NCBI GenBank assembly: GCA_036768485.1
Contig: JAVLUZ010000511.1
Span: forward strand, 1,564,411 to 1,628,410
Length of the DNA: 64,000 bases
DNA from: Mermis nigrescens
Taxonomy: Eukaryota > Nematoda > Enoplea > Mermithida > Mermithidae
Reading direction: 5' to 3'
This document shows, piece by piece, positions 1,719-55,369 of this stretch (the first letter of the stretch is position 1; each line of letters begins with the position of its first letter). Made by a program: the position numbers and the translations under genes. The notes under the pieces are model-generated. The model did not search any database and had not been told where the DNA came from. It was given only the letters and a program-made list of their open reading frames with translations.

Positions 1719-1722
1719 TAAG
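1719..1722 (+). repeat. 4-bp target-site duplication of the LTR element
   Basis: TAAG directly precedes the 5' LTR and is repeated at 15999-16002 directly after the 3' LTR. A 4-bp duplication is usual for Ty3/gypsy integrases. Matching flanks show that this is one intact insertion rather than a recombinant of two elements. Confidence 0.85.
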
Positions 1723-2711
1723 TGTAACTGCGAGAGTTACACGTTTAGGCGAACCTGCTTTAGCAGTTCGCAATAGCCATAACATAGCCAATACTAGTAG
1801 CTATCTATGATAGTGTACTGTGGGCTATGCCTTCGGTCTTCCCATTATTTTCCCAAATTTTCAATAATAAAAAACATTTAGATACTTGTCCGGTATCGTA
1901 GAGCTAAGTGTATGATAATAGTAATTGTTTCATACATACCGCTTGTGTAATCGATCTGAGATAAAAGTCATTTCAGTATTATGTTAAATTGATCGTTGTT
2001 TTAATTTACTGTAATGGTCCTTGAGGCCAGGGTATAGGAAGTCGAGTTGGTTTTTACGGCTTGTTTGGTTTTTCATTGGCCGGTTATTCTCGACTGTATA
2101 TTGTCATTTTTCTTTTGCGTATTTGTTTTCCCGGCTATAGGCCGTGTGTTCTTCGTTAAATAAAATCCTAGAAAACCAACCCAGTGGTTTCGGATATACC
2201 GAGGGTTTGGTCGGCCATCATCCCTTCGTCGAGGACTTCCACCCATCTAGTGGACTGATAGGTAAATTCCGTATGATAGTCTTTTCCATCCGAAAATCAT
2301 AATTTATGTCTCAAGCCTAAAAATTGATCAAAACTATTATTTAATCTTTAGAGATGGTTGATCAACATAGAGCTCGTTGTTGTTGTTTTCAGTGTTCAGC
2401 GTACTACACAAATTAGGAACCAAAACATTTCGAATCAGGCACTGATTGAAAATAAGTTAAATAAACAACTTGAGCTTGAGATAGGTCAACTGACCTCCGC
2501 GGCAATTACCGAGACTAGGTAGGTAGCCTTAGGTCTTAGGGCGTAGCTGCTGAGATCACCCGACCAGAAGCAGCCAGCAATATTAGGGCTGAGGGGATCG
2601 AAGCCGTAAGGTCTGTAAGGGTCCAAAGACCTACGTACCTAGGTAAATCTCGAAGGTAATGTATCAGTCCCTACGTCGATTCTGTAGACGTTAGGGGCTC
2701 CTACATTTACA
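1723..2711 (+). repeat. 5' LTR
   Basis: It starts TGTAAC and ends TTTACA, so the termini form the usual short inverted repeat TGTAA/TTACA. It aligns with 14956-15998 over its whole length apart from scattered substitutions, densest around 2030-2110, and a gap of about 56 bp near 2630 where the 3' LTR has extra sequence (15861-15917). The first 110 bp fold into consecutive hairpins: GTGTAACT/AGTTACAC around 1722-1742, a GCGAAC..GTTCGC arm pair around 1750-1772, and CATAGCC..GGGCTATG around 1780-1831. A candidate polyadenylation signal AATAAA lies at 2159-2164. No TATA box was assigned. Confidence 0.95.
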
Positions 2712-2712
2712 T

Positions 2713-2730
2713 TGGATGTTCCCTCCTTTA
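2713..2730 (+). other. Primer-binding site (candidate)
   Basis: TGGATGTTCCCTCC begins one base after the 5' LTR. A PBS starting with TGG pairs with the CCA end of a tRNA, and the position is exactly where it should be. The matching tRNA was not identified. Confidence 0.65.
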
Positions 2731-3301
2731 GGCTGCTAGCTACAGCCGAGCTGATCAATCATCGTAAAATTATTTTTCGATCCAAAAAATTATCATTTTG
2801 GCCATCTAAAAATGTGTAACGTTTCGTTCACCTTTGTTGTTGTATCGACCGCGATCGTGGCAGTGCGCAATTTAAGTAAGCGTCCGTGGTAAAGATTTTG
2901 TGTATCGTGGTAAAGCCATCGTTATTTTTCTATTTCCGTCGGACCTCTACCGACGAAGGCAGCTCTCATGCTCGCATATTCATTTTTCTATAAACGTCAG
3001 CCCTCAGGCGACGAATTATCATTTTTCTCAACTGACGACGAATTTCCGTCATTTAGGTTCTTACCTACCTGTTTTTCTAACCATGTACACAGTCTTGCGC
3101 TTTAGGCTTAGTTCTATCTGTTTTCGATCATTTCACGTCAGGTATATCCTACTTCACGTAAGGAAATACTATTTACGTGGAAAAACCTGTTTTTCGGATC
3201 GACAAAGGTCTAATTCGAAACATTTATTTTGGGAAAAATTTCGACGTACTGAAATTTATTTTACCCAAAGGCACATTTTTCGACATTTTTGACACCTAAA
3301 A
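2731..3301 (+). other. Untranslated leader of the retrotransposon with candidate splice donors
   Basis: This region lies between the PBS and the Gag ATG and has no convincing coding sequence. Two candidate 5' splice sites are AA|GTAAGC at 2876 and GTG|GTAAAG near 2888. Either could pair with the acceptor at 10016-10017 to make a short mRNA for the exonuclease ORF. This is inference; donors of this quality occur by chance. Confidence 0.4.
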
Positions 3302-6300
3302 ATGGCAGGAAAAAGGTTTTGCGGACACCGCCCGCTAAATTGAAAAAACCTCCTACGCCACCTGTTTCAGCTCGCCAATTACCTACTGCGCCTGTTGACT
3401 CTAATAGCGCGTGTAATTCTGCGAGTAATTACGAGAGACGTAACGACTAAGGCGAATAATGATAAATTACCCGCGTCACTACATGCCGCGAGTAATACAC
3501 AGTCCGAAGACGAATTATCATTGAGTACCATGCAATCTCGCATTAATCAATCTTCGCTAACTAGGTCGGATCCTAATATTGACAATTCATCAAGTCACAC
3601 AATGATCGATAATACGACTACCATTAACACGGCAAATAATCCTGAAACCAGTTCGGAGCGCGAAAATCACGATTCTGACGTAGAGAGTAATCATAGTCGC
3701 TGCATGAATGCCGACAGAGAACGTGCTAATGCTAATGTGACTAATGATCTTATTTTGAAAGCGCTACAAGCCATTCATTTGCAATTTTCGGATCTTTCTA
3801 CGCGCGTTGATCAAGATAAAAAGGAAAATGTGGATGAAATGCGTAAACTGCGTTTGGAGCTAAGCACTATGCTTAAACCCCAACCAGTTCTGAATCGCAT
3901 AGAAACTAATGTATCTGAGCGCGATAACCACTCAATCGATAGCGCAAATTTTTCTGAATTCAATGCGCAAAGTGCAAATCGTGCGCAAAGTACGCATAGG
4001 GCATCTTCACTGTTGTCTACTAGCAACAGAGCATCGAATTCACGTTCACCTTCAGAAACTGTTCCAGAAAACATCTCTCAAAGTTGTACGAACCGCGCGC
4101 CGGAAATCTGTAATTTGTCACAGAATCCTGTAAACACGGGTTTGCAATCAGTGCAAAACTCGGGTTTTTCGGAGAATATACCTACGATTTCGCAGCCGTC
4201 GGTATCGATTTCGCAGACGTCGCGATCTCGGCCTTCGCTGCCATTAAATCGTAATGCGCCTTCCTTTGTACCTACTCCTTCTATTGCAAATTCGCAGCAG
4301 CAACTAAATCCACCACCGCTGCAGTATTTTCCACCTCAAGGAGAAATCTTACCCAATAATTATGTACCTAACCCTATAAACGTGGAAATACCGCCTAATA
4401 ACCCTATTTTGCATTCTTCCAATATTGAAATGCAACCGGTTGAGATAAATTTATCTGGTATTAATAACGAATCTGCAAATTTGCAAAATGAATCTGCTCC
4501 TCAAGCTGAATCGTCCAATAGGAAAAAGCATGTCAAATTTTCTGACGACAGCTCATCTAATAGTTATGATCGCCCGCGCAGTCGTCGCTCGCGTCGCAAA
4601 TCTCGATCGCGCAGACGACGTCATAGGCATAGTTCATGTTCTTCATCTGAAAGCTCGCGTGGTGATTCACATCTCGCTGATTCCTTGAATCGCGGACCAT
4701 TTTTGCAGCAGATGCAATTTGCAATTACAAATAAAAAATTTTTTGATGGCGATAAATCGGATATAAAGGCTTATTTTGCAGAATTTGAATCGCTTGCCAA
4801 TACCTATGATATTGACAAAGCTGATCGTTTAAAATTCGCTACTGGATTTCTTGACCCTTATGTTTTGCATTTATACCATTCGTTACCTGCTGATATACAA
4901 CAATCTTATTCGAAAATGAAGCATGCGCTAATAACCGAATTTTGTCCTATGGACACCGGTGCACTATTTAATCGTTTTCTGTCACACAAACAGCAGCCTA
5001 ATGAATCGGTTAAAGCTTATTATCTCTCGCTTCGCAAAGAGTTAATTAAATCGGATCCCTATCTTGAAGTTGATTCGCCACATTTCAATAATCTAATGCG
5101 ACATCAACTAAAACAAGGTTTATTACCACACATTTCGAAAGAGGCATATCATAAAAAACCTAGGGCATCATTAGCTGAATTTTTAGACAATGCGCTTAGC
5201 GCTGAATTTGCTAATAAAGAATTTGAGGATAAAAAGGCAGTAACGCCTTACGTATTGGTAACAGCTGCTCCAGTAGGCAGCGTAGTACCTAAAGATACTC
5301 CTCGCGCATCTAATCAAAATGATCCAAATCGTTCACGTCATAGAACGTTTCATCGCTCATCGCGTGCTGAGAAACCAGAAAATTCTTCTCGTAAATATTG
5401 TACTTTTTGCAAGCGCATAGGTCATATTTATGAGGAATGCTTCACGCGTCAAAGGCAAGACACGTCTAATAATGCTAATTTTAATAATCAAGCTGATCGG
5501 AATACTAATTCTATGGTGCGCAACCGCAGCCAATCGCGTTCTTTTTCGCGACGAAATCGTTCGCCATCGCATTCGAATTCACAGAATAGGCATCGATCTC
5601 AATCACGATATCGTAATTCTAGTCAACATCGTTCATCTGACTATGTGAATAATGATAATTGCTTTGAAGCAAAGCAATCACGATCGAATTTTTGGCAAAA
5701 TCGTAATGATCCTTACCAAAATTTGCGTGCTAATTATCAAAATTCGCGTTACGATAATTGTTATAATAACCAATCGCGCCAAAATACACCTTTTGTGCAA
5801 TTTCCTAATGAACAACGTGGCACATACTATAATTCTAGTTACCGCAGCGATAATAATTTCAATTGCCCGTATGTCACATACACTGCAGATAACCAACCCG
5901 CCATAAATGTGCCCCCACCGCAGCCAACCCTAACATCTCCTTGTGATGTGAACACAGTTACTGCGAAAGACCAAGAATCTAGCGTGCGTCCAAATTTATT
6001 CGTGTTGCAAGAATTTCTTGAAGAGTACGAACGTCTACAACGTCGTCTTGCAACTTACGAAAAAATTAATCTACCTCCATCTAAGATTTTCGATCCTAAT
6101 ATTCCTATCGTAAGTCATGCTGCGACAAATTTACCCACTATTCTCGTTAAAGTTCATGGCGTTGACGTACCTGCTCTGATAGATACAGGTTCACAGGTCA
6201 CCATGATGACCACGTCTGCATTTTTACGTCTTGGTTTTAATTTACCACGTAAGCAAGTTTCACAAGTCGTGCATGGTGTAGGCGAAATCACCGCAGTCGT

Positions 6301-6868
6301 TCGCTATAAAGTAAATATGACCTTAACAATCGCGGAACAATCTATTTCTACCTCAGTAGCTATAATTGATCAATTGCCGGAAGACATGCTCTTAGGATAT
6401 GATTTTTGCGAATCCGCACTCATGTGGGTAAATCCTATTGAGCGTTGTGCTTTTATAAATGGCATAAAGATTAATTTACTTTCATCTCACGAAAAATTGC
6501 AATTTCGCGTGAAACCCAACGCAACTACCTCTGGTGTTGTGTGTGTGCATGTTTCGTTACCTGAGCCTGTTATCATACAACCTAGGCATGAATTAATTAC
6601 ACCTGGCTACATAAGTCACGGTTCTTGCAATTTTGATTTCGCATTATTCGAACCAAATCACGATTTTATGGAAAAAACTTCACTTTTTGTTGCTCCGTCT
6701 ATAGTCGATGCGTCACAACCTCTAATACCTGTTCGCGTCTGTAACATCTCTAAAGCACCAATTCGCATTGACTCTGGTGAAATAGTAGGTTCTTTAACTC
6801 TGATGCCGAAGTTGTGTCACATGTTTCATCCTTTGATGATAGGACACCAGAACTTTTTGCATCAATAA
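3302..6868 (+). pseudogene. gag-pro: Gag-protease polyprotein (N-terminus frameshifted)
   Basis: The likely start is the ATG at 3302 in a strong context (AAAATGG). From there the frame closes after 13 codons. A natural-looking Pro/Lys-rich N-terminus continues in frame 1 to about 3445, and the long frame 2 then runs to TAA at 6866-6868, so two small indels disturb the start; the run of A at 3309-3313 is the likely first one. Counting from 3395, residues ~390-425 and ~700-760 are Arg-Ser rich. Residues ~449-610 resemble the Ty3 Gag capsid (retrotransposon gag domain). A CCHC zinc knuckle (C-x2-C-x4-H-x4-C) lies at residues 669-682. The aspartic protease has its LIDTGS catalytic motif at residues 928-933 (bases 6176-6193) and a GYDF-type second motif near 6400. 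The protein would assemble particles and process the polyprotein. Confidence 0.93.
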
Positions 6869-8505
6869 ACAAAGCTTTAAACGGCTCCGCCGTTAATTCT
6901 AGACAGCAGCAACAAATTCGTGAACTTTGCCTAAAATACGACTCAATTTTTGCATTAAAAAACGAACCTCTCGGTCGTACCCCCTTGATGAAACATCATA
7001 TTGACACAGGGGATAATCCACCCGTTGTTGGAAAAACTTACCGTGTTGAACATTCTAGAAGAGAATCTATGCAGAAAATTATAAATGAAATGCTTGCGGA
7101 TAAAATTATTCGACCTACAACTAGCCCATGGGCAAGTCCATTATTTCTCATTGGAAAAAAGGACGGTTCCCTTAGGCCAGTCGTCGATTATCGACGGTTA
7201 AATGACGTTACTAAAACGCAAGTATACCCTCTTCCGCAACTAGACGATTATTTTGATACTTTAGGAAGTGCTGCATATTTTAGCACACTAGATTTGAAAT
7301 CTGGATATTGGCAAATTCCACTCGATAATAAATCTCGCTAAAAAACAGCATTTATATGTCCTGTTGGTCATTACGAATTTGAAGTTTTACCTTTTGGTTT
7401 AAAGAATGCACCCGCAGATTTTCAAAGACTAATGGAGCTTGTGCTCGCAGGTCTAAATTGGAAATCTTGTCTCGTCTACATCGATGACATAATTATTTTT
7501 TCACGAACTTTCGAAGAACATTTAAAAGATCTCGAAAATGTTTTCATCGCTCTTAAAAAGGCAAACTTACGTGTCAAGCCTGATAAATGCCATCTCGCGC
7601 ATGCTGAGGTAAAATTTCTTGGCCACAGCATCAGTGCAATGGGCATTGCTCCCGATATGTCTAAAGTCGCAGATTTAATCTCGTTTCCCGTACCAAAAAC
7701 CGTTAAATCCGTGCAGAAATTTCTTGGCTTAGTCCAATGGTTTAAGAAATTCGTTAAGGATCTCGCTAAAATCGCTAAACCGCTATTCCATCTTCTACGT
7801 AAAGATGTCGAATTTTGCTGGAAGGCTGAACACCAAACCGCTTTTGAGCTTCTGAAGAAAGCATTTACATCTCCACCTATTTTGCAATTACCAAAATTCG
7901 ATCATGAGCACCAATTTATTTTAACAACTGACGCAAGTAACTATGCGTTAGGTGCTATTTTGATGCAAAAGCATTTACCATCTAAAAGTCGTTTTATTCT
8001 TAGCTACGCTAGTCGCGTGCTAAATTCTGCAGAATGTAATTATGCTACTTCAGAAAAAGAAGCGCTAGCGGTAGTGTGGGCTATCAAGCATTATCGACAT
8101 TATCTTTATGGTAAAAAATTCATCGTAGAAACTGATCATCAAGCGTTAACCTGGCTAGTAAATGTTAAAGACCCATCGAGTCGATTACGCCGTTGGGGTC
8201 TCAAATTACAGGAATACGAATATGATATCGTCTATGTTCCTGGTGCATATAACTGCGCAGCTGATCTTCTTTCACGTCATCCTAAATATGATCACGCAGA
8301 ATGCAAATATAAAGTAGAGCGCAAAAATATCGTTAACATCGCAAATTTAGAATCCGAAGATTCTGAGTCAGATGACGAATCGGCTCCACCTGACCGATCG
8401 TGCGATAATACCCCTACTGCGCCAATTAATCATCCAAACGCACAAAATAATAATCCTAGTGCGCAAACCGATCCTACTAATTCTAAACCACCTACATTTC
8501 TGTGA
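6781..8505 (+). pseudogene. pol: Reverse transcriptase-RNase H (internal stop codon)
   Basis: The frame is open from 6781, overlaps the Gag-protease frame by 88 bases in the -1 register, and runs to TGA at 8503-8505. A TAA at 7339-7341 interrupts the RT palm just before the segment with GHYEF; one C-to-T change of a CAA codon explains it. RT motifs follow the Ty3 pattern: the KKDGSLRPVVDYR block, LDLKSGYWQ, PFGLKNAP, and the catalytic YIDD at 7477-7488. RNase H follows with catalytic D at 7930 (TTDASN), E at 8059 (EKEAL), D at 8134 (TDHQAL) and the AADLLSR block. No obvious X-XXY-YYZ slippery heptamer is seen in the 6781-6868 overlap, so the -1 change may be a 1-bp deletion rather than programmed. 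An acidic, Asn/Pro-rich tail follows RNase H. Confidence 0.95.
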
Positions 8506-9496
8506 ACGTTTGTTACTCACCGATGCAGAAAAAGCTGAAATGCTAACACCTGCGCGCTTACTCACTGAGCAACGTGCAGATGACGAATTGCATAAAATTC
8601 GTATCGCATTGAATGACTTAACAACGAAAAAATATCGTGACGAATTTTTTCTTGTAAATGATGTACTTTTTTGTCGTTTTCAACCTAAGCGTTCACCAAC
8701 TGTCGTTCATCAAATCATCATACCCAAATCTTTGCGTCGCTTCATATTAACGGAATTTCATGACTCTATTTTCGGAGCTCATTTTTCATCGCGCAAAATC
8801 TTGCCCGCCATACAAATATGTTATTGGTGGCCGCGTATGGAAAATGATGTAATCGCGTGGTGTAGGAATTGTGATGTGTGCTTACAACGTAAGGTCTCAT
8901 TAAATTCCACATCCGTTCCGTTGCAACCAATCGAAGTATCCGCACCTTTTGAACTCATTGCGTGCGATTGCTTGCATATGCCGCGATCTCCCTCCGGAAA
9001 TGACCAAATTGTAGTTTTTATGGATTATTTTACAAAATACGTGGAAGCTTTTGCTGTTTCTGATATAAAAGCAACAACTATTGCAAATTTATTACTAAGA
9101 GAAATTATACCACGTTATGGAGTCCCCAAGAAATTTTTGACAGATCAGGGGTCAAATTTTACATCTACCCTAATTTCGGAAGTTTGTAAACTATTAAACG
9201 TTCAAAAAATATTTACAACCCCATATCACCCCCAGTGTGATGGGTTGGTGGAACATTATAATCGTACATTGATTGCTGGTTTGTCTAAGCTGAGTGCGCG
9301 ATCACAGTATGATTGGGAACAATTTCTACCCTTCGCATTATTTGCATACCGCGCGACTCCACAATCATCAACTAATATATCTCCTTTTGAAATGCTTTAT
9401 GGTCGTGAACCAGCATTTCCTCTTGACACCTTACTCATAAATGACTTCTGTAATAAATCCGAACTTACCATCTGTTGCGGAAAAATATGTCATTGA
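8372..9496 (+). pseudogene. int: Integrase: zinc-binding and catalytic core
   Basis: This frame (+1 relative to RT-RNase H) carries the integrase. True homology starts near 8500; the first ~40 codons after the ATG at 8372 are a shadow of the RNase H tail. The HHCC zinc finger uses H at 8759 and 8780 and C at 8870 and 8879. The DD35E catalytic triad is D at 8966 (IACDC), D at 9143 (LTDQGSN) and E at 9251 (LVEHYNRT), with exactly 35 residues between the second D and E. The enzyme would join the cDNA to host DNA. Homology leaves this frame near 9444 and continues in the next (+1) frame, so this copy is broken there unless a +1 shift is used. Confidence 0.93.
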
Positions 9497-10112
9497 TTTA
9501 AAGCTGACTTTGCAGGATCTGCATGAAATCGCGTCTCAAAATTTATCTCAAGCGCGTAAGCAGCAAAAATCGCAATATGACAAAGCCGTAGCACACACAA
9601 ATTTTAATCTCTCGGATATAGTCTACCTCAATAATACCTCAGTCATTCAACCGGAAATCGGTAAACTATCACCTAAGCGTGTTGGTCCCTACCGGATTAT
9701 TGACTCACCTACGCCTGAAACTGCGAAAATTGCATATGTCTATAACCCTCTTATTATTCATCACGTTCACAGGAATAGACTTTTGCCTGAACCTAAATTA
9801 CCTTATTCTGACTTAATTGTGGAAAAACACGCGTATGTCCCTGGCGATTTTGTGTTGGTAAAGTTACCACATCGCCCTCTTGCCCCGGCAGTAGTCATAA
9901 GTTTTGAGGATTTACCGGGCAGGGAACAAAAAGCTAAGGACTGCGCGCCTGTACGTTTATTAAATGGTTCTAAAACAGCACATGCCGTACCATTATCTAA
10001 TCTTTTTCCTTTTGCAGACCCATGGCTGCTCAAGGTACCCCCAGCAAGGAGGCACTGTTGGAGGCAGCTGGTTGCCGATGCAAATTGGAGGGACGTGTGC
10101 CCGCGTCCCTAG
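9441..10112 (+). CDS. int: Integrase C-terminal domain with GPY motif and a PWWP/Tudor-like module
   Basis: This frame continues integrase after the +1 change. Residues 1-60 (from 9441) are the helical linker. VGPY at 81-84 is the GPY/F motif of Ty3-type integrases, followed by the HHVHRNRLLP segment. Residues 133-191 form a second beta-rich module: VPGDFVLVK, then PLAPAVV, then APVRLLNG and VPLSNLFPF. This order matches a PWWP domain (GDLVWAK, PWWPA.V, VRFFG, .W.P...L.PF), with PLAP in the position of the PWWP tetrapeptide. PWWP domains read H3K36 methylation or DNA in host chromatin factors such as LEDGF. By analogy with the chromodomain of chromovirus integrases, it may direct integration. 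A duplicated SH3-like integrase tail is the alternative. The last ~30 codons overlap the next ORF. Confidence 0.75.
   Translation: MTSVINPNLPSVAEKYVIDLKLTLQDLHEIASQNLSQARKQQKSQYDKAVAHTNFNLSDIVYLNNTSVIQPEIGKLSPKRVGPYRIIDSPTPETAKIAYVYNPLIIHHVHRNRLLPEPKLPYSDLIVEKHAYVPGDFVLVKLPHRPLAPAVVISFEDLPGREQKAKDCAPVRLLNGSKTAHAVPLSNLFPFADPWLLKVPPARRHCWRQLVADANWRDVCPRP
9995..10017 (+). promoter_or_regulatory. Candidate 3' splice site before the exonuclease ORF
   Basis: A branch-point-like TCTAATC, the pyrimidine tract CTTTTTCCTTTTG and CAG ending at 10017 lie 4 bases before the ATG at 10022. Spacing and tract quality are those of a good metazoan acceptor. Splicing from the leader would place the exonuclease ATG first on the mRNA. 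Not verifiable without transcript data. Confidence 0.5.
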
Positions 10113-11791
10113 ATGAGTTTCGTTTGGCGTTGACCAGTATGGCTTTAGAGCAGGGATTGGTCGTACCCAACCCGCTGCCGCAACATGATACTCGCCGTGT
10201 TGGCGGTCCTGAATCACTTAGTGCAAAATGGATAAAGTATAAGACAACACATAAAATCGCAAATCACAGAAAGCGCATAAATGATCAACATCTCTGGTGG
10301 GAGAATCGGCTTGGTAGAAGTCCTTTGGTAACCCCTCGCGTACCAAAGAATAGGCTTTTACCCACCGTCATAGTCTCCGACGACCAGAAGTCATTTGGCG
10401 CCATTTTGGCATTAATTCAGCCATCGAATATGACGAATGGCACTTTATTCCTAGGCTATGACTCCGAATTTGTGAATGATAGGAAAGGCAGGCATTATAA
10501 GACGTGGGACCTGCGTTTTCAGCAACTTTGTCCCACTTACCAGGACCTCCATGGCCCATTTGTACGCTACATCCAAGTGGCGAGCGCGACTGGCCATGTG
10601 TTCTGTTGGGATCTAGCGAAGTTTCCGCAACCTCCGTTCGGGCTTCATCAGTTGCTAGAAACACGTTTACCTAACGTGTATATGGTGTGTTATGACCCGA
10701 CGCAAGATCGACTTGCGTATTTCCATGTCTACGGGCCAACATTCGAAGAAATTGTTGCAATTCCGGATGTAGAAATTCGCAATAAACTGCACTGGAAAGA
10801 CCCATTTATTGCAAATTTCATCGATATTCAGCCGCTGGCGAGAACATTTACTTGTCGTTTACGCATTAAAGCGCAATCGCATTTGTTAAAGCGTTTGGCA
10901 GAGTTCTTTTTCGACATGTATATTGATCCGAACGCGCCTGAAAACTTCGGACAGGCGTGGAGCTTACCCTTAACTCGGGACATGCAGCATTATCTCGCGA
11001 TGGACGCCCTCATAACTATTGATGTTTTTATCTTGATAGAAGGGTGCTCGCAGGATAATCGCATTACTGACGATAGAAAGCCCATTTCGGTTTCTATCAT
11101 AGGCGATGAGCTGTACATTAAGGCTAGTGGTCCGAAAGCCAGAGTACGTGTACCATTGTTGTCTAGCAAACCACCACCAGGGCAGTCAACCAGCACAGCT
11201 GTTGAACCTGAAGTTGACTCAAATGGCGAGGAGTTAATTCTAGCTGAGGAATTTTATTGCCCGGCTCCGCAACCACAAGTAGCTATAGCGGCAGCCACCA
11301 CCATTGCCTCAGTAACGGAAGTGCTGGCTCACGCTAACGTGTTTGACAACCCCGACTTACAAGTGCAGGCTTCACAAACCGTTGCCGACTCAGTTTCGGG
11401 CCCGGTAAATGCGCCTGACACGGAACCTAAGTCGAAACCAACCAGTACAAGCACACCAGTTTCGGTATTTTCTTCGCAAACCGATATTCCATACGATTCG
11501 CCTATGCTGGGTGTAGAACCATCGATCTACACTGAAGACGACGATCTATCTCCCAAACGTTTAGTTATGGCGTTATCCGACGCCGAGGCGGAAACACAGG
11601 CTAACGTGACGCCACCGCGCGTAACACGCGGAGCAATGGCTCGAAAGGGATTGTTACCGTTGCGCAACCGATTGTTTCACAATCGCTTGCGGCAGTTCAA
11701 CAAGCTCCCTTGGGTATCAGTGCACTCGGACCTTTGCCGACTCTTCAGCCGGTTGGGGCATAGCAGCAGACTGACCCAGATGTCATTATGA
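10022..11791 (+). CDS. RNase D-like DEDDy 3'-5' exonuclease ORF of the retrotransposon
   Basis: The frame has 589 codons and starts at ATG 10022 (CCCATGG, strong context) inside the end of integrase. The exonuclease domain lies at residues ~135-345. Motif I is FLGYDSEF with D147 and E149, followed by the strand VRYIQVAS and the FCWDL segment. Motif II holds D229 in an NVYMVCYD..QDRLAYF helix. The RNase D/WRN-type F-x-D turn is FIDIQPLAR (D268). Motif III is W313-SLPLT-x4-HYLAMDA with Y324 and D328, the Y-x3-D signature of the DEDDy class. All five active-site residues are therefore present. Relatives trim 3' ends of RNA or DNA (RNase D, WRN, Nibbler, EXD1/EXD2). Residues ~370-530 are Pro/Ser/Thr/Val-rich linker. 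The end is odd: after ~11650 the -1 frame looks more protein-like. Substrate and role are unknown; proofreading, cDNA end processing or attack on host small RNAs are possible. Confidence 0.85.
   Translation: MAAQGTPSKEALLEAAGCRCKLEGRVPASLDEFRLALTSMALEQGLVVPNPLPQHDTRRVGGPESLSAKWIKYKTTHKIANHRKRINDQHLWWENRLGRSPLVTPRVPKNRLLPTVIVSDDQKSFGAILALIQPSNMTNGTLFLGYDSEFVNDRKGRHYKTWDLRFQQLCPTYQDLHGPFVRYIQVASATGHVFCWDLAKFPQPPFGLHQLLETRLPNVYMVCYDPTQDRLAYFHVYGPTFEEIVAIPDVEIRNKLHWKDPFIANFIDIQPLARTFTCRLRIKAQSHLLKRLAEFFFDMYIDPNAPENFGQAWSLPLTRDMQHYLAMDALITIDVFILIEGCSQDNRITDDRKPISVSIIGDELYIKASGPKARVRVPLLSSKPPPGQSTSTAVEPEVDSNGEELILAEEFYCPAPQPQVAIAAATTIASVTEVLAHANVFDNPDLQVQASQTVADSVSGPVNAPDTEPKSKPTSTSTPVSVFSSQTDIPYDSPMLGVEPSIYTEDDDLSPKRLVMALSDAEAETQANVTPPRVTRGAMARKGLLPLRNRLFHNRLRQFNKLPWVSVHSDLCRLFSRLGHSSRLTQMSL
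11644..11650 (+). promoter_or_regulatory. Candidate -1 ribosomal frameshift heptamer
   Basis: AAAGGGA sits in the correct zero-frame phase (CGA AAG GGA) for an X-XXY-YYZ slippery site. A -1 slip here leads into a frame whose next ~37 codons look like Q/A/P-rich coding sequence and end at TAG 11761-11763; beyond that TAG the same frame contains the ATG of the 792-codon ORF. A small indel plus a CAG-to-TAG change in an originally fused exonuclease-basic ORF would give the same picture. Confidence 0.35.
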
Positions 11792-14166
11792 CGGAAATTA
11801 TTGGTTTTCCACCACAACCGCAACGTACATTAGCTGCACACGAAGTACCACATGTAGCAATATACACGCAAGTAGCGACTCAGCCCGTGTCACAAGGTAC
11901 GACGGCACCGGAGACTCGTTTCACGGCTCCTATGGCCATGACGGGTGTGTCTAGTACCGTGGCAAATTTACATTCACAGGCTATGCAAAGCCAACCATCG
12001 AATTTGGAAGTCGCAATACCTGCGCACGTGCAAGCTATTCGCGATCAAATGGCCGCAAATGATAATGCGAGAATTCAAAATTGCTCGCGTTACGTGCAGC
12101 ATTTTTTCACAATGATGGAAAATATGACGCGCGAACCACCGTGCATTATTGCGCCAGTCGTTCTGCACAACTTACGCTCCTATTTGGGTGAAGTCAATGG
12201 ATCGCGTTTGTACGATCAATTGATCGAAGCTGCTCAAGTGTACTTCGATCGAGTGTACGCAATTCATTTGCAATACGCGAATTCAACTGATTCGCCCTCG
12301 CGTCCTTTAGTGTGGTCTACGCTCGCACAGCCTTTAGCTGATGCCGATCGTGAGCCCGCATTTCGTTTCATCAGCGATATGAGCGTCTTTAATCGATTAT
12401 TTTATCCCGACCAATACTTCGTGCGCATTCGGTTTTTCATCACAACCGGAATGATGTTGTACGAGGTTCCGCTCGAGTATTTGGTCGTACACCCACACCT
12501 TGACGCACCAACCAAAGTGATCGACGGCGTGACACATCAAATTTCTCCGGATTTATATCCGCATCGAATGTCACCAGCGCCGGATCATCTTGCGCCAATT
12601 CTAATACCGACACGCCAAATGGTCGATATTTTCGATACTTTCCGAGAATTTCAGTCCTTATATGAATCGGAGTATCGACGTATGACGGTCTTTTCTTCGA
12701 TAGACGTCATGCGCGCTACAGCGCTTTTGGAATTTTTGGATAGAAAATTCCACTATTTCGCATACGCCTATGGCAATGCCGGAATAGGTTGGCGTATGAC
12801 GGAACAGCTGCGTCGCATGTTACGCGTAGCGTTCCTTGGCGAATCTTACAAGCCATCTCCACATGAGGCTTTTCCGGAATTTCCGGACCTAACAGCACGA
12901 ATTGAAAGTCCTCACGTTTTGCATAACATGATTAGGCAAATTCGGTTAGCTACCGACCCGGCACTCAAAGTTCCGGCTCAGTTCGATCGTTTTCGAGGTC
13001 GTCAAAAATCCGTATTTTACCTCAAACATCGAATTCAAGACAAATTGGAAAAAATTCGTAAAGAAAGACGACAGGCATCCTCGCAGGACCCAAGCGGATC
13101 CGTGGCGAGCCTTGATATGCCCGAAGTTGATCTTTCCTTGGAAGCACAGATTGCAATGCGTCGAACACGCATGACTATCGAGCAGCGTGATCGTGAGAAT
13201 TTAGCTACGGAAATGCCACGGCGTGCGACGAAGTTACGCGCCGCCGGTTCTCTTGCTGAGACATCAGAAGTTTGTCATATGCCAGAAGACAAACACAAGG
13301 CAAAATTGAATCGTTTTTACGATACAAAATCCGAGCACACGTTGCGACGGTTGAAAAATTTGGAAAAACAACGAGTGAGACGACTCGTTCAAGCTGAAGT
13401 TGCAGCTAAATTAAAAGCGCGTTTAGGCCAAAGGGGATCGAGGCGACAAGACCCGCAGTCATCCCGGCAGCGCTATGCGCAAACGCACCACCGTTTGCAA
13501 TCACAAGCACAGCAACAGACACACGTAAAACCGCATGTACAGCAATACACAAGACCGCAGACCCAACCGCGGCAACAGCAGCAATTCACGGAATCGCGTG
13601 AGCGTTCCGAGGCATATTCTCAGGCCGATGCTGGTCATCTGTCGCGCTCGCAACAGCAGCAGCCTTATGAATACCGCCGTCCGCCACAGTCGAACCGCGG
13701 AACTCATCGGGGCCGGTCGCAATCCCGCCAACGTCAATGGGACCAGTATCAATCACCGTTGGAGCAAAGTCAACCAGCCACCGGGGGTTATCAGCCACAA
13801 CCTCGACCGGGTCCACTTTTGCCAAAACCGTGGCCTGTTACGCAACAACAACAGCGTCCACGCGAACCTTCTCGACAACGCACTTACGGTTTTACGCCGG
13901 AGCAATTATTTACTCCGACGCCACCCATACCGCGTCGTTACGCGGACGATTACGAGGACGATGACGATTTTGAGGACGACGATCGACCCGTCGATCCACA
14001 TCGCCGCTTACGCCAACATATGTACGGGCGTAGGCAATCGCCATATCAGTATCGCGAGCGTTCGAATACGCGTCGCGAACCGGAATCGGATCAAGAATAT
14101 TTTCAACGACACCGACGTCGCGGAAAATCTTATGGCTCGAAGGCCAAATACCGCGACGATTATTAA
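11788..14166 (+). CDS. Large basic Q/R-rich ORF of the retrotransposon, family unknown
   Basis: The frame has 792 codons. Its ATG overlaps the stop of the exonuclease ORF (ATGA at 11788-11791), which suits termination-reinitiation, unless the two were once fused. Residues 1-60 are Gln/Thr/Ala-rich. Residues ~65-440 look globular and mostly helical, with aromatic-rich stretches such as LFYPDQYFVRIRFFI and FLDRKFHYFAYAYG. Residues ~435-565 are highly charged and may be coiled coil. Residues ~565-715 are disordered and rich in Q, R, P and G with RR/RG pairs. An acidic run lies at 720-732, then a basic tail. No signal peptide, membrane segment, zinc knuckle or catalytic motif is seen, so it is not an envelope protein. 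The composition suggests RNA binding or condensate formation, such as a second nucleocapsid. I do not recognise it. Confidence 0.8.
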   Translation: MTEIIGFPPQPQRTLAAHEVPHVAIYTQVATQPVSQGTTAPETRFTAPMAMTGVSSTVANLHSQAMQSQPSNLEVAIPAHVQAIRDQMAANDNARIQNCSRYVQHFFTMMENMTREPPCIIAPVVLHNLRSYLGEVNGSRLYDQLIEAAQVYFDRVYAIHLQYANSTDSPSRPLVWSTLAQPLADADREPAFRFISDMSVFNRLFYPDQYFVRIRFFITTGMMLYEVPLEYLVVHPHLDAPTKVIDGVTHQISPDLYPHRMSPAPDHLAPILIPTRQMVDIFDTFREFQSLYESEYRRMTVFSSIDVMRATALLEFLDRKFHYFAYAYGNAGIGWRMTEQLRRMLRVAFLGESYKPSPHEAFPEFPDLTARIESPHVLHNMIRQIRLATDPALKVPAQFDRFRGRQKSVFYLKHRIQDKLEKIRKERRQASSQDPSGSVASLDMPEVDLSLEAQIAMRRTRMTIEQRDRENLATEMPRRATKLRAAGSLAETSEVCHMPEDKHKAKLNRFYDTKSEHTLRRLKNLEKQRVRRLVQAEVAAKLKARLGQRGSRRQDPQSSRQRYAQTHHRLQSQAQQQTHVKPHVQQYTRPQTQPRQQQQFTESRERSEAYSQADAGHLSRSQQQQPYEYRRPPQSNRGTHRGRSQSRQRQWDQYQSPLEQSQPATGGYQPQPRPGPLLPKPWPVTQQQQRPREPSRQRTYGFTPEQLFTPTPPIPRRYADDYEDDDDFEDDDRPVDPHRRLRQHMYGRRQSPYQYRERSNTRREPESDQEYFQRHRRRGKSYGSKAKYRDDY

Positions 14167-14947
<781 letters not shown>

Positions 14948-14955
14948 GTGGGGAG
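14948..14955 (+). other. Polypurine tract
   Basis: GTGGGGAG abuts the 3' LTR, where a purine-rich primer for plus-strand DNA synthesis is expected. It is short. Confidence 0.65.
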
Positions 14956-15998
14956 TGTAACTGCGAGAGTTACACGTTTAGGCGAACCTGCCTTAGCAGT
15001 TCGCAATAGCCATAACATAGCCAATACTAGTAGCTATCTATGATAGTGTACTGTGGGCTATGCCTTCGGTCTTCCCATTATTTTCCCAAATTTTCAATAA
15101 TAAAAAACATTTAGATACTTGTCCGGTATCGTAGAGCTAAGTGTATGATAATAGTAATTGTTTCATGCATACCGCTTGTGTAATCGATCTGAGATAAAAG
15201 TCATTTCAGTATTATGTTAAATTGATCGTTGTTTTAATTTACTGTAATGGTCCTTGAGGCCAGTGTATTGAAGGTCGTGTTAGTTTTTTGGCTTGTTTGG
15301 TTTTTCGTTGGCTGGTTATTCTCGACTGTACATTGTCATTTTTCTTTTGCGTATTTGTTTTCCCGGCTATAGGCCGTGTGTTCTTCGTTGAATAAAATCC
15401 TAGAAAACCAACCCAGTGGTTTCGGATATACCGAGGGTTTGGTCGGCCATCATCCCTTCGTCGAGGACTTCCACCCATCTAGTGGACTGATAGGTAAATT
15501 CCGTATGATAGTCTTTTTCCATTCGAAAATCATAATTTATGTCTCAAGCCTAAAAATTGATCAAAACTATTATTTAATCTTTAGAGATGATTGATCAGCA
15601 TAGAGCTCGTTGTTGTTGTTTTCATAGTTCAGCGTGCTACACAAATTAGGAACCAAAACATTTCGAATCAGGCACTGATTGAAAATAAGTTAAATAACAA
15701 CTTGAGCTTGAGATAGGTCAACTGACCTCCGCGGCAATTACCGAGACTAGGTAGGTAGCCTTAGGTCTTAGGGCGTAGCTGCTGAGATCACCCGACCAGA
15801 AGCAGCCAGCAATATTAGGGCTGAGGGGATCAAAGCCGTAAGGTCTGTAAGGGTCCAAAGATCGAAAGCCTTAGAGCCGCGCGATCGGGGCCAGCACTAA
15901 GCGTAGACTTAAGTACCTACGTACCTAGGTAAATCTCGAAGGTAATGTATCAGTCCCTAACGTCGATTCTGTAGACGTTAGGGGCTCCTACATTTACA
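14956..15998 (+). repeat. 3' LTR
   Basis: The sequence runs from TGTAAC to TTTACA and is 1043 bp. It matches the 5' LTR with scattered substitutions and carries about 56 bp (15861-15917) absent from the 5' LTR. It holds the same tip hairpins and the polyadenylation signal. Divergence between the LTRs could date the insertion. Confidence 0.95.
15391..15396 (+). terminator. Polyadenylation signal in the 3' LTR
   Basis: AATAAA, conserved at 2159-2164 in the 5' LTR, is the best candidate for ending the retrotransposon transcript. Confidence 0.5.
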
Positions 15999-16002
15999 TA
16001 AG

Positions 16003-52579: not shown

Positions 52580-55369
52580 TTAAGCCCGCCCTATAATAAA
52601 TTTGGATAAGTCGACATCAATTAATCTAGATTTGAATACATTTAAGTTAGGGGAAGAGACTACAAAATCAGGTAGGTGATTCCAAACAGAGATATACTTA
52701 TAGAAAAAGTCAAATTTTTGTAAATTAGAACGGACAAGAGGAACAACTAGCTTGAAACGATTTGTGCAGCGAGTAGTATTTTGATTAAGCACAAAAAAAT
52801 CTGTCATGGAAAGACAAGATTTTTGACTAATAATTTGATACATCATACATAAGCAAATATGAAGGCGACGTAATTCTAATCGACACAAGTTAAGTTGGTT
52901 AAGGCGTTCGTCGTAAGAAAGAGGGCTATGATATCCAACTATGTATTTAGTAAATTTACGCTGAAGAGCCTCCAGCCTGTTGATATCACTAATATAAGAG
53001 GGGTTCCATAAAGCACAGGAATATTCAAGGATCGGTCTGACGTAAACAATGAAGGCCTTTACGAGATTATTTTTATCACGCGAAAAGAAGGATTTTCTAA
53101 TTAAGATAGATCTCAAGAAAGCTTTCTTGATAATACTGTTGTAATGTTCCTTAAATTTCAGGTTGTGCGAAATTAGCACTCCTAAATCGCGAACATAGAC
53201 AGAATCGTTCGTAATAACTTGTGTATTGAGTGTATATGACAATTTAGGATTATTTTTGCCCAAATATAGGACTGTGCATTTAGAATATGATATTGGTAAA
53301 CAATTTCTGGTGGCCCAAATGGAAATTCTATCTAAATCGGTCTGAAGTGTTTGATAATTGCAGGAAAGATTGAATATTTTTAGGTCATCCGCGAACATAA
53401 AAGTCGAACTTGACAAGTTATCAAAGATATCATTTATAAAAATCAAAAACAACGTAGGTCCAAGAATGGACCCTTGAATAACTCCACTTGTAACAGCGGC
53501 ATAATCTGAAAAACACTGATTAACGCGAACACACTGAATACGATTAGATAGAAAAGCTTTTAACCAATTAAACAGGTGTTGTTGAATACCGTAACTAGTT
53601 AATTTAACAAGAAGTTTAGATATGTCGACTTTGTCAAAAGCTTTAGCAAAGTCTATATAAATAATATCAACGGTTTCTTTACATTCCAGTGATTTAACCC
53701 AAGAATGTTTACAATTTAATAGTTGCAATTCGCAAGATTTATGTTTTTGGAAACCATATTGAAAAGGTGATATTAACTCATTAGTAGATAAATAAATTGA
53801 TAGTTGAGTATTAATAATACTTTCCATTATCTTACAAGTTGAGCAACATAAAGAAACAGGACGATAATTTTCAGTTAATGAGGGGTCACCCTTTTTAATT
53901 ATAGGTACAACGTAAGCCTCCCTCCAAATGTCTGGGATATCACCTGATAAAAAAGAAACAGTAAAAATACTGATAAGGGGTTTAAGAAGATAATAAGCTA
54001 ATTTTTTAACAAAAAAGTTACTTAAACCATCAGGCGCTATCGAAGTCGAGTTTTTCATCTTAGCAATCGCCCGTGAGACATTATTTTCGTCAAAGACGAT
54101 GTTTGAAATAGAAAAATCGCCCCGCTTCTGAAAAACAAAAGAATCGTTAATATCATCATTGGTAAATACGGAAGAGAAGTAATGATTGAACATATTAGTT
54201 TTACAATGAAGATCAGTTACTACATTATTGTCGGTGGAAGTAATAGGTGGAATGCTTCGAGAATTATTTAAACGATTATTTACAAATCTAAAAAAGGATT
54301 TCAGATCGTTATGTTGCAATAAATTACTTTCCTGTAAACAAAAATGATTATGAATTTCTTTGCGTAACATTTTACAGTGATTACGATACCTTTGTTTGCA
54401 TATAATTGTACGATATTTTTTGTATTTTTTCCATAAAAGCCGTTTTTTGGCAAATAATTTTCGTAAAACTTTAGGGTATGAAAATTTGGAAGGCTTTGCT
54501 TTGACTTTAGGAACAAAAGTAAAAATTAGAGGCCTTAAGACATTTAAAAATACATTATACATGTCGTTAACATTTAAACAAGTAGAAAAAAGATCAGGCC
54601 AAGAAATAGTAGAAAGAAAGCTACCAATACTAAAGTAGTCTGCTTTTTGAAAATTAAAGTGAGATTCTACATAAGTAGTAGGTGGAGTTATCAGAGTTTC
54701 AAAAGATATAGAATTGTGGTCACTTGTAGAAAAGGAGGGTAGTACTTTAACATTAAAAACATTATTTGCTGCAAAAATAACATCAATAATATTTGTATCA
54801 TGCGTTTGATCTAAAACTAATTGTGTTAATCCTGTAGACGAGAAACAGTCGTAAAACAATTCGTTAAGAGAATCGGATGTAAAGGTACCTAAGGTCCAAT
54901 CAATTTTAGGTAAATTGAAATCCCCTAGGATAATTACGGGATAAGAGCAATTATTTACCCATTCTATCAAGTTACAGATTCTTAAAGCATGATTTAAATC
55001 GTAGTGAGGAGGTCTGTAAATAAGAAGAAATCTAATTCTATCCTGACCATGGAAAAAATCAATAATTAAAGAGTCAGATATACTCAGTTCGTTAGGAACT
55101 TTAACAAAACGAGCACTAAAATGTGATTTTACAAAGACAATGACCCCGCCGCCTTGTTTATTCACTCGATCAGAGCGAAAAATTTGATAATTGTTTTGAG
55201 GACATAAAATGCTATCATGAATTACTTCGTTTAACCATGTTTCACAACAGAAAATTAAGTCGAAATTGTCACTATCTAACAAATAATATAACTCCCCTAA
55301 CTTGTTTACTAAACTTTGTGCATTGAATAAAAAACACCTAGCGCTAATAAATTCGGAGGGCGACTTATC
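52580..55369 (-). CDS. LINE ORF2: AP endonuclease-reverse transcriptase
   Basis: The frame is open for 930 codons on the - strand, from just after TAG (55370-55372) to the stop at 52580. No ATG lies near its start, so initiation may depend on ORF1 or the ATG has been lost. The endonuclease begins FNAQSLVNKLGELYYLL and includes the ETWL, GGGV, ILGDFNLP and TSDHNSI motifs with the catalytic Asp, Asn and His. RT follows with the RPVSLCCSTCKIME block, QYGFQ, IYIDFAKAFDKVD, GVIQGSILGP and the catalytic FMFADDLKIF. The C-terminus has the RPILEYSCALWNP and FKSRLIDVDL segments. The enzyme would nick DNA and copy its RNA by target-primed reverse transcription. The uninterrupted frame suggests recent activity. 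Confidence 0.92.
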   Translation of the reverse strand, partial: DKSPSEFISARCFLFNAQSLVNKLGELYYLLDSDNFDLIFCCETWLNEVIHDSILCPQNNYQIFRSDRVNKQGGGVIVFVKSHFSARFVKVPNELSISDSLIIDFFHGQDRIRFLLIYRPPHYDLNHALRICNLIEWVNNCSYPVIILGDFNLPKIDWTLGTFTSDSLNELFYDCFSSTGLTQLVLDQTHDTNIIDVIFAANNVFNVKVLPSFSTSDHNSISFETLITPPTTYVESHFNFQKADYFSIGSFLSTISWPDLFSTCLNVNDMYNVFLNVLRPLIFTFVPKVKAKPSKFSYPKVLRKLFAKKRLLWKKYKKYRTIICKQRYRNHCKMLRKEIHNHFCLQESNLLQHNDLKSFFRFVNNRLNNSRSIPPITSTDNNVVTDLHCKTNMFNHYFSSVFTNDDINDSFVFQKRGDFSISNIVFDENNVSRAIAKMKNSTSIAPDGLSNFFVKKLAYYLLKPLISIFTVSFLSGDIPDIWREAYVVPIIKKGDPSLTENYRPVSLCCSTCKIMESIINTQLSIYLSTNELISPFQYGFQKHKSCELQLLNCKHSWVKSLECKETVDIIYIDFAKAFDKVDISKLLVKLTSYGIQQHLFNWLKAFLSNRIQCVRVNQCFSDYAAVTSGVIQGSILGPTLFLIFINDIFDNLSSSTFMFADDLKIFNLSCNYQTLQTDLDRISIWATRNCLPISYSKCTVLYLGKNNPKLSYTLNTQVITNDSVYVRDLGVLISHNLKFKEHYNSIIKKAFLRSILIRKSFFSRDKNNLVKAFIVYVRPILEYSCALWNPSYISDINRLEALQRKFTKYIVGYHSPLSYDERLNQLNLCRLELRRLHICLCMMYQIISQKSCLSMTDFFVLNQNTTRCTNRFKLVVPLVRSNLQKFDFFYKYISVWNHLPDFVVSSPNLNVFKSRLIDVDLSKFIIGRA

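Follow-up and report, generated by a model that had tools for sequence, protein, structure and literature searches.

An LTR retrotransposon family of Mermis nigrescens with a predicted DEDDy exonuclease in a third open reading frame

In this study, we describe an LTR retrotransposon of Mermis nigrescens carrying, after its integrase, an open reading frame (ORF3) in which homology and selection together support the presence of an RNase D/WRN-type DEDDy 3'-5' exonuclease domain. By sequence comparison, homology to the DEDDy superfamily, an invariant active site, purifying selection and a post-integrase position in divergent element groups are shown. A function of this exonuclease is likely, because the domain is constrained at least as strongly as the integrase core, has been kept in divergent groups and retains an intact active site in every distinct window-type copy analysed. 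A preliminary description of the element was unaware of any standard Ty3/gypsy lineage carrying a domain of this kind, a statement overtaken by the DEDDy ORF3 reported in 2017 from the LTR retrotransposons Juno and Vesta of bdelloid rotifers (Rodriguez et al., 2017; PMC5408684). The arrangement is rare, and bdelloids are the only hosts of such elements known so far from the literature considered.

Architecture of the element and of ORF3

The element lies in a window of 64,000 nucleotides (assembly GCA_036768485.1, contig JAVLUZ010000511.1), which is the whole stretch of DNA analysed, and on the evidence of its LTRs and gene order it is a Ty3/gypsy-like LTR retrotransposon (Table 1). Indeed, the LTRs have TG...CA ends and are bounded by a target duplication, and the order gag, PR, RT, RH, IN is that of Ty3/gypsy elements. 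The Retrotrans_gag match in the window Gag reached 23.3 bits, slightly below the cut-off of 24.1. An in-frame stop separates the two open pieces of the RT/RNase H frame in the window copy, and elsewhere RH-IN is a single continuous frame, of 735 aa in three copies (L062, L064, L065) and 731 aa in another (L066). The placement of ORF3 between the LTRs and after the integrase, as originally described, was borne out.

Table 1. Features of the window copy (positions within the window)
Feature	Position	Strand	Remarks
Whole LTR retrotransposon, Ty3/gypsy-like	1723-15998	+	
Target-site duplication TAAG, 5' copy	1719-1722	.	flank reads ...ctaag ahead of TGTAAC
5' LTR, TGTAA...TTACA	1723-2711	+	967/987 aligned bases same as 3' LTR
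Gag (Retrotrans_gag) and aspartic protease	3395-6868	+	Pfam profiles; ORF list
RT and RNase H	6814-8505	+	open pieces 6781-7338 and 7342-8502 on either side of an in-frame stop
Integrase: H2C2, rve, SH3/Tf2-1 region	8372-10112	+	two overlapping frames in window copy
PWWP-like domain, weak, integrase C-terminus	9843-10016	+	20.4 bits vs cut-off 25.6
Splice-acceptor-like site: ATCTAAT, pyrimidine tract, CAG	9995-10017	+	ends 4 nt upstream of ORF3 ATG
ORF3a, 589 aa, with predicted exonuclease	10022-11791	+	window copy
Predicted DEDDy exonuclease domain, residues 110-345	10349-11056	+	D147, E149, D229, W313, Y324, D328
End of ORF3a in frame differing from fused-ORF3 copies	11651-11791	+	
ORF3b, 792 aa, Q/R-rich tail	11788-14166	+	
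3' LTR	14956-15998	+	
Target-site duplication TAAG, 3' copy	15999-16002	.	

The family ORF3 protein measures about 1383 aa (1381-1383 aa in fused copies), and many copies carry the exonuclease and ORF3b fused as one protein; in the window copy it is split into ORF3a and ORF3b, with roughly the last 46 residues of ORF3a outside the family frame. A subfamily with a frame change in ORF3 also exists. Downstream of the exonuclease, the fused protein continues through a region of about 800 residues, the tail of which is basic and Q/R-rich. Pfam profiles found no known domain in ORF3b and neither Mut7-C (E<=10) nor helicase domains in the fused ORF3; moreover, PHROGs gave no match for ORF3, and NCBIfam merely two chance-level matches, both in ORF3b.

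Identity, retention and constraint of the exonuclease domain

A profile search had been proposed as a check on the domain, and its outcome was divided: the window protein alone had no Pfam match at E<=1 (and no PDB match), while all eight siblings scanned exceeded the PF01612 cut-off, siblings which had been retrieved with PF01612 itself and therefore form no independent count. Sister-copy domains of the window type gave 16.7 and 15.2 bits against the cut-off of 23.6, and the domain of sister copy L021, searched by itself, had an E of 0.0066; L060, taken from a lower-scoring row, reached 22.9 bits, slightly below the same cut-off. A profile of window-type copies alone likewise had no PDB match. 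In the comparison between groups, window-type copies (alignment A2, nine copies) and sibling ORFs from other LTR groups (A3, ten ORFs) matched in hhalign at 98.2% and E 5.9e-14, and the joint profile A1 had 18 PDB matches at E<=0.1, including WRN (1.2e-11), NrnC (1.1e-6), Mut-7 (3.7e-6), EXD2 (4.1e-6) and Egalitarian (1.4e-5). Together with selection, these profiles support the RNase D/WRN-type identity originally suggested. AlphaFold models made without an alignment, for the ORF and for the domain alone, had a pLDDT of 36-37, too poor for a fold search; the RNase H-like DEDD fold is supported by the sequence profiles.

The residues D147, E149, D229, W313, Y324 and D328 are invariant in 25/25 distinct window-type copies, and the Exo I D-x-E (D147/E149), Exo II D (D229) and Exo III Y-x3-D (Y324/D328) motifs align with the siblings; the E149 column holds E in seven of the eight sequences of one cross-family alignment. 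The active site first listed stood for these positions and lost D268, which is N in 1/25 copies, is absent among the invariant columns of cross-family alignments and was dropped as an active-site residue. Among the siblings, an active-site residue has been lost in two copies (E to K in L036, D to Y in L040). A catalytically dead DEDD fold with a structural or RNA-binding role, like Maelstrom or EXD1, would have precedent in derivatives known from the piRNA pathway (PMC5408684, in the sections considered); it is nonetheless very unlikely in view of the catalytic D/E and Y conserved throughout the window-type copies.

The search of the M. nigrescens genome scored at least 74 copies of the ORF out of 2858 first-look candidates, contradicting its absence from other copies of the family; 71 of the 74 have no stop inside the match, a proportion biased to intact copies, since only the best candidates were scored. 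At least three further LTR-element groups of this genome have a related ORF after the integrase, and the exonuclease and pol trees split the same groups apart. Relatives from outside this genome were absent from the results of all sequence collections searched: the protein databases gave none, whether the query was the ORF of 589 aa, the fused ORF of 1381 aa or alignment A1, and neither did the viral contigs. Two PF01612 host genes of the same genome were judged by eye to be Rrp6/EXOSC10-like (L059) and EXD-like (L061). A COX1 stretch on contig C61 is free of stops when translated with the invertebrate mitochondrial code, in agreement with an invertebrate host. In several sibling families the integrase bears a clear PWWP domain, LEDGF/NSD2-like, which is weak in the window type. 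Sibling L053 has an LTR pair 99.4% identical over 634 bp, at which no target duplication was seen, and L052 has matching ends of merely 118 bp. Both match a viral fusion glycoprotein family (L053 slightly below cut-off) in addition to carrying ORF3, which makes ORF3 unlikely as an env substitute.

The dN/dS analysis across copies, also proposed at the outset, was carried out on 25 distinct window-type copies and gave medians of 0.040 for the exonuclease domain, 0.156 for the N-terminus and 0.245 for the linker, the copies compared being the best-scoring ones and hence biased to intact frames. When all regions were compared in one set of three copies, the exonuclease had a pN/pS of 0.041, against 0.068 in the integrase core, 0.094 over the entire RH-IN frame and 0.243 in the linker; in these copies the domain is constrained at least as strongly as the integrase core. 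The pol values are 0.091-0.094 without L063, which was left out because its frame begins out of register and inflates them (0.166-0.209 with L063), and a much stronger constraint on the exonuclease than on pol is accordingly not claimed. Retroelements capture genes, and the subfamily with a frame change would suit a captured host fragment carried without function; however, the difference in dN/dS between the domain (0.04) and the adjoining linker (0.25), and the occurrence of the domain in several divergent groups, make such a passenger extremely unlikely.

Expression and possible roles of ORF3

ORF3 starts at its own ATG in a frame different from pol, and the acceptor-like site upstream is identical in 25/26 copies, the window copy being one base off, which suggests that ORF3 is expressed separately. 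The conservation of this site is weak evidence, because the same stretch doubles as integrase coding sequence; moreover, when all 2194 ATGs in the window are rated by a simple score, one besides the ORF3 ATG does equally well. The heptamer AAATTTG stands in the -1 slippage register, from pol into ORF3, in the overlap of 6/26 copies, and GGGCCCG does so in L015; in 19/26, the window copy included, the overlap has no slippery heptamer in register. Thus, some Gag-Pol-ORF3 fusion may be produced by -1 slippage in the six copies, and frameshifting is unlikely as a general route because AAATTTG occurs in so few.

Separate expression would in turn make proofreading inside Gag-Pol less likely. DEDD exonucleases serve proofreading in DNA polymerases and nidoviruses, and the heptamer of the six copies could bring some nuclease into the polyprotein; yet ORF3 is distinct from pol and begins at an ATG in a different frame, and many overlaps lack a heptamer in register, which leaves proofreading of reverse transcription quite unlikely.

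In our reading, ORF3 is probably a catalytically competent DEDDy exonuclease that acts mainly as a separate protein, translated from spliced RNA, and trims 3' ends in trans. The acceptor-like site close upstream of the ATG points to a spliced subgenomic RNA as the main source of ORF3, and because of this source the nuclease would be mainly a separate protein; its R/Q-rich tail would bind nucleic acid, and the nuclease would then trim nucleic-acid 3' ends in trans. WRN, the top PDB profile match, acts on DNA ends, which we count against this reading. As to substrate, host small RNA is a tentative candidate, and RNA 3' ends, whether of the element or of its primer, are an equally tentative one; some other substrate or role is unlikely, and cDNA ends taken by themselves are decidedly so.

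Taken more broadly, a maturation role, in which the enzyme would trim the element RNA at its 3' end, the primer, or the ends of the cDNA prior to integration, is a serious candidate, if somewhat short of an even chance. The exonuclease has been kept alongside pol in divergent groups, and a constraint at least that of the integrase core is expected for a replication enzyme. On the other hand, most LTR elements, to our knowledge, replicate without a DEDDy exonuclease, and ORF3 has its own ATG in a frame other than pol. RNA 3'-end processing was also the role proposed first for the bdelloid enzymes in the sections of that report considered (PMC5408684). If the substrate is RNA or cDNA ends, ORF3 would represent an added step in the retrotransposition cycle.

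It is also possible, more tentatively, that the exonuclease frees the element from silencing by destroying or trimming piRNAs or siRNAs of the host, which would make it a transposon-encoded counter-defence enzyme if small RNA is the substrate. The profile search places Mut-7/Nibbler among the closest relatives of solved structure, separate expression would suit a protein acting away from the particle, and transposons are the preferred mapping sites of pi-like small RNAs in the bdelloid Adineta vaga (PMC5408684). Against this, a dN/dS of 0.04 has no arms-race signature, although the proposed substrate is RNA, as opposed to a fast-evolving protein, and the extra ORFs of bdelloids had no unambiguous link to copy number in the sections considered (PMC5408684). 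The PWWP on sibling integrases adds a second idea, that of built-in targeting. A wider proposal joins the two, namely a deep-rooted animal LTR clade with a DEDDy small-RNA trimmer made from spliced mRNA against silencing, in many members of which the integrase PWWP would steer insertion to chromatin that is methylated and transcribed, with no LEDGF-type factor of the host involved; we regard this combination as doubtful.

Comparison with known systems

Juno and Vesta resemble the window element in being PR-RT-RH-IN LTR elements with an RNase D-like DEDDy ORF3 after the integrase and several families per genome, and spliced messages are given as the typical route of ORF3 expression (PMC5408684). 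In contrast, Juno and Vesta carry a dUTPase between PR and RT (PMC5408684), which was not found in the window Gag-PR and RT ORFs (E<=1) or in the 1457-aa frame of L052 through RT (E<=0.1). Their motif is DEED, whereas that of the window element is DEDD; in the sections of the report considered, no chromodomain was found in them and PWWP is unmentioned (PMC5408684), unlike the PWWP of several sibling integrases here. The window-type ORF3 of about 1383 aa is a further difference; the comparison draws on the published description of the bdelloid elements. Moreover, the env- and GDSL-like ORFs of bdelloids showed no significant departure from neutrality (PMC5408684), whereas the exonuclease described here is under strong purifying selection.

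The Terminon/Athena elements also provide a retroelement-borne DEDDy 3'-exonuclease, but they are Penelope-like, endonuclease-deficient and telomere-attaching (PMC6431247), whereas the window element has LTRs and a DDE-type (rve) integrase. The WRN exonuclease domain, NrnC, Mut-7/Nibbler and EXD2, all of the PF01612 superfamily, present the same D-x-E, D, Y-x3-D order; these are, however, cellular enzymes, and ORF3 has no detected helicase or Mut7-C. Finally, chromoviruses are Ty3/gypsy elements with an integrase chromodomain, and they share with the sibling families an extra domain of chromatin-reader type behind the integrase SH3/GPY-F region, which is a chromodomain in the former and a LEDGF/NSD2-like PWWP, weak in the window type, in the latter.

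Element structure and identity of the exonuclease

The retrotransposon carrying the exonuclease ORF is bounded by two LTRs, 989 and 1043 bases long, that agree at 967 of 987 aligned positions; they have TGTAA...TTACA ends, and the element is flanked by a TAAG target duplication. Its pol is broken, with an in-frame stop in the reverse transcriptase (RT) region and an integrase split over two frames; among five other copies, RNase H-integrase (RH-IN) forms a single frame in four (735 aa in three and 731 aa in the fourth, within the extent of the fetched pieces) and two frames of 310 and 453 aa in the fifth. Elsewhere in the window, non-LTR retrotransposon ORFs were noted, their endonuclease-RT being judged by eye. 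The genome measures 524 Mb, with one contig of 48.8 Mb, and its COX1 stretch can be read with the invertebrate code.

Coordinates of features and membership of exonuclease ORF groups (L, loci of the same genome)
Feature	Location	Strand	Remark
LTR retrotransposon	window 1723-15998		LTR pair and target duplication
Weak PWWP trace	window 9843-10016
ORF3a	window 10022-11791		starts within last ~90 bases of pol, different frame
ORF3b	window 11764-14166		or C-terminal part of ORF3
ATGA overlap	window 11788-11791
Non-LTR ORF	window 52580-55282	-
Non-LTR ORF	window 57129-57686	+
PWWP-bearing integrase frame	L060:2588-4465	-
PWWP-bearing integrase frame	L049:2417-3439	-
PWWP-bearing integrase frame	L051:2409-3431	-
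PWWP-bearing integrase frame	L042:2-1135
PWWP-bearing integrase frame	L036:3-974
PWWP-bearing integrase frame	L040:3-860
PWWP-bearing integrase frame	L035:192-1046
PF24664 match	L052:2-4372		group ii sibling
PF24664 match	L053:786-2903		group ii sibling
Group ii	L029, L032, L037, L041, L047
Group iii	L035, L036, L039, L040, L042, L049, L051
Group iv	L060

The preliminary description had assigned ORF3a to the RNase D/WRN-type exonucleases, a reading supported by profiles built across groups, whereas the ORF alone had no match in Pfam, PHROGs, NCBIfam, PDB or a large protein set. A whole-genome search with PF01612 gave 90 matches, 46 of them above the cut-off; judged by eye, three of the latter, on contig C728, seem to belong to a single host gene with several exons, and a fourth, on contig C147, to a different host gene. 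In the 1.5-kb flanks of 25 fetched loci, which include one pair with identical exonuclease ORFs (L029/L030) and one nearly identical (L042/L044), tblastn found integrase or its C-terminal part at 11. Furthermore, longer stretches revealed protease, RT and integrase upstream of the ORF in L052 and L053, and RNase H-integrase lies 26 bases upstream of it in L060, a lower-scoring PF01612 row.

These ORFs fall into at least four groups, namely the window type, ii, iii and iv. With E values from 1.1e-5 to 3.6e-10, all eight group ii/iii proteins scanned passed the cut-off of PF01612, as expected of proteins fetched with that profile itself; L060 reached 22.9 bits, and the domain cut out of window-type sister copies 16.7 and 15.2 bits (cut-off 23.6). 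Profiles of the window type and of groups ii and iii matched each other over 229 columns (98.2%, E 5.9e-14), and the window domain as a single tblastn query also picked up L035, L039 and L045, with values of roughly 1e-6 to 1e-7. Against the PDB, the joint profile retrieved 18 sequences at E<=0.1, including NrnC, Mut-7 and EXD2, with WRN as the best (1.2e-11) and two being Rad50, outside the exonuclease domain; a profile of nine window-type copies had no match there. The best-supported statement on ORF3 function is a predicted active 3'-5' exonuclease, made mainly as a separate protein.

Catalytic residues and selective constraint

In an alignment of eight sequences, D147, D229, W313, Y324, D328 and D334 were among the invariant positions and the E149 column held E in seven; therefore, the active site comprises D147/E149, D229 and Y324/D328, and D268, formerly listed with them, is dropped. 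The 26 window-type loci compared include two identical ones and so give 25 distinct copies; in these, the six catalytic/signature residues were unvarying and D268 varied once. Two sibling copies, L036 (E to K) and L040 (D to Y), each lack one catalytic residue and offer natural contrasts.

The ORF is kept in other genomic copies, consistent with the earlier claim of an element-borne enzyme: 71 of 74 copies (87-100% identity), scored from 2858 first-look candidates in a way that favours intact copies, gave a stop-free match. Across the 25 distinct copies, median pairwise dN/dS, computed from non-independent pairs in a sample favouring intact copies, was 0.040 in the domain (residues 110-345), against 0.156 at residues 1-104 and 0.245 at 370-550, a contrast among parts of one ORF that does not rest on that bias. 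Moreover, pN/pS in three cleanly comparable copies was 0.041 for the exonuclease and 0.243 for the linker, while the integrase core gave 0.068 and the complete RH-IN frame 0.094 (0.091 with four copies); L063, whose chosen frame starts out of register, was left out of the pol comparison. The exonuclease is thus at least as constrained as integrase, the difference itself being not secure with three copies. Since the exonuclease (14 sequences) and pol (11 sequences) trees, both short, unrooted and weak at some nodes, part group ii from the window type, iii and iv, the exonuclease probably travelled together with pol.

Forms, expression and substrate of ORF3

An open frame of 1388-1390 codons was found in 17 of the 74 scored rows, joining the exonuclease to the window's ORF3b (792 aa); three copies read fully encode 1381, 1383 and 1383 aa. 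The window copy and L002-L004 have in common a change of frame around residue 543, so that their exonuclease ORF stops after 589 aa. It does so in an ATGA overlap, an arrangement familiar from coupled termination-reinitiation. L024 is split at almost the same point (590 aa), bringing this subfamily to five copies, and the split form seems to have been passed down to several copies. The ORF3 C-terminal part (ORF3b; L021, L023, L026) consists of a globular-looking stretch, under purifying selection in three copies (pN/pS 0.122), followed by a Q/R-rich tail (18% Q and 16% R over the last 232 residues); the libraries searched gave no meaningful match to it.

Towards the ORF3 start, ATCTAAT is followed by a pyrimidine tract, CAG and ACCC, after which comes ATGG with the start codon. 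By a simple pyrimidine-tract-plus-YAG score the ORF3 ATG ties for top with one other of the 2194 window ATGs on both strands. Of 26 copies, 25 share this acceptor-like stretch without any change and the window copy differs by one base in the tract, but its conservation by itself proves little, because the stretch also encodes integrase in the window type. Among siblings, L029 has CCTAG immediately before the ATG and L032 GTAG nine bases before it, and no comparably clear site was seen in the others of the 12 sibling ORFs listed. ORF3 may be expressed by splicing, in agreement with a general statement on ORF3s (Rodriguez, Kenefick and Arkhipova, 2017). Alternatively, -1 frameshifting could lead from pol into ORF3, as a heptamer in slippage register, AAATTTG, lies about 60 bases past the ATG in six of 26 copies (L007, L009, L012, L014, L023, L026) and L015 has GGGCCCG in this register; 19 of the 26, including the window copy, have no such heptamer in the overlap.

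With splicing, the exonuclease would mainly be made as a separate protein, whose tail is suggestive of RNA binding. The first-choice substrate would be RNA in trans, with host small RNAs and the 3' ends of element or primer RNA as the two candidates. With WRN as top profile match, DNA ends stay a candidate. The enzyme does not seem to be a regular part of the polyprotein, which makes proofreading less likely.

Sibling domains and known retroelement exonucleases

Behind the SH3/GPY-F region of integrase, PWWP exceeded the Pfam cut-off in six of seven group iii loci scanned (the integrase frame of the seventh, L054, ends early) and in L060, whose domain has NSD2 and LEDGF (PC4 and SFRS1-interacting protein) among 25 PDB matches. 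In the window type the PWWP signal is weak, at 20.4 and 17.7 bits against a cut-off of 25.6, and in the L029 piece there is none. Chromoviruses carry a chromodomain at the integrase C-terminus, whereas several related LTR elements here have PWWP in that place, possibly as built-in chromatin targeting; no PWWP-bearing LTR integrase was reported among the literature matches listed. In addition, the viral fusion glycoprotein family PF24664 matched upstream of RT in L052 (1.2e-17, in one frame with protease and RT) and just below cut-off in L053; envelope-like parts do not usually lie there.

Within the literature searched, which covers few subscription journals, no title reports DEDDy ORF3s of LTR elements from another animal group than bdelloids. 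Such ORF3s have been described in the bdelloid elements Juno and Vesta (PMC5408684; Rodriguez, Kenefick and Arkhipova, 2017) and are common to these and Athena/Terminon elements; the finding is repeated or cited in PMC6431247 and PMC6338049, the latter counting DnaQ-like exonucleases among the well-known accessory domains found in LTR elements. According to PMC5408684, the bdelloid enzymes have predicted activity and the motif DEED, with a dUTPase in the pol of Juno/Vesta, whereas the present elements retain DEDD and have no detected dUTPase.
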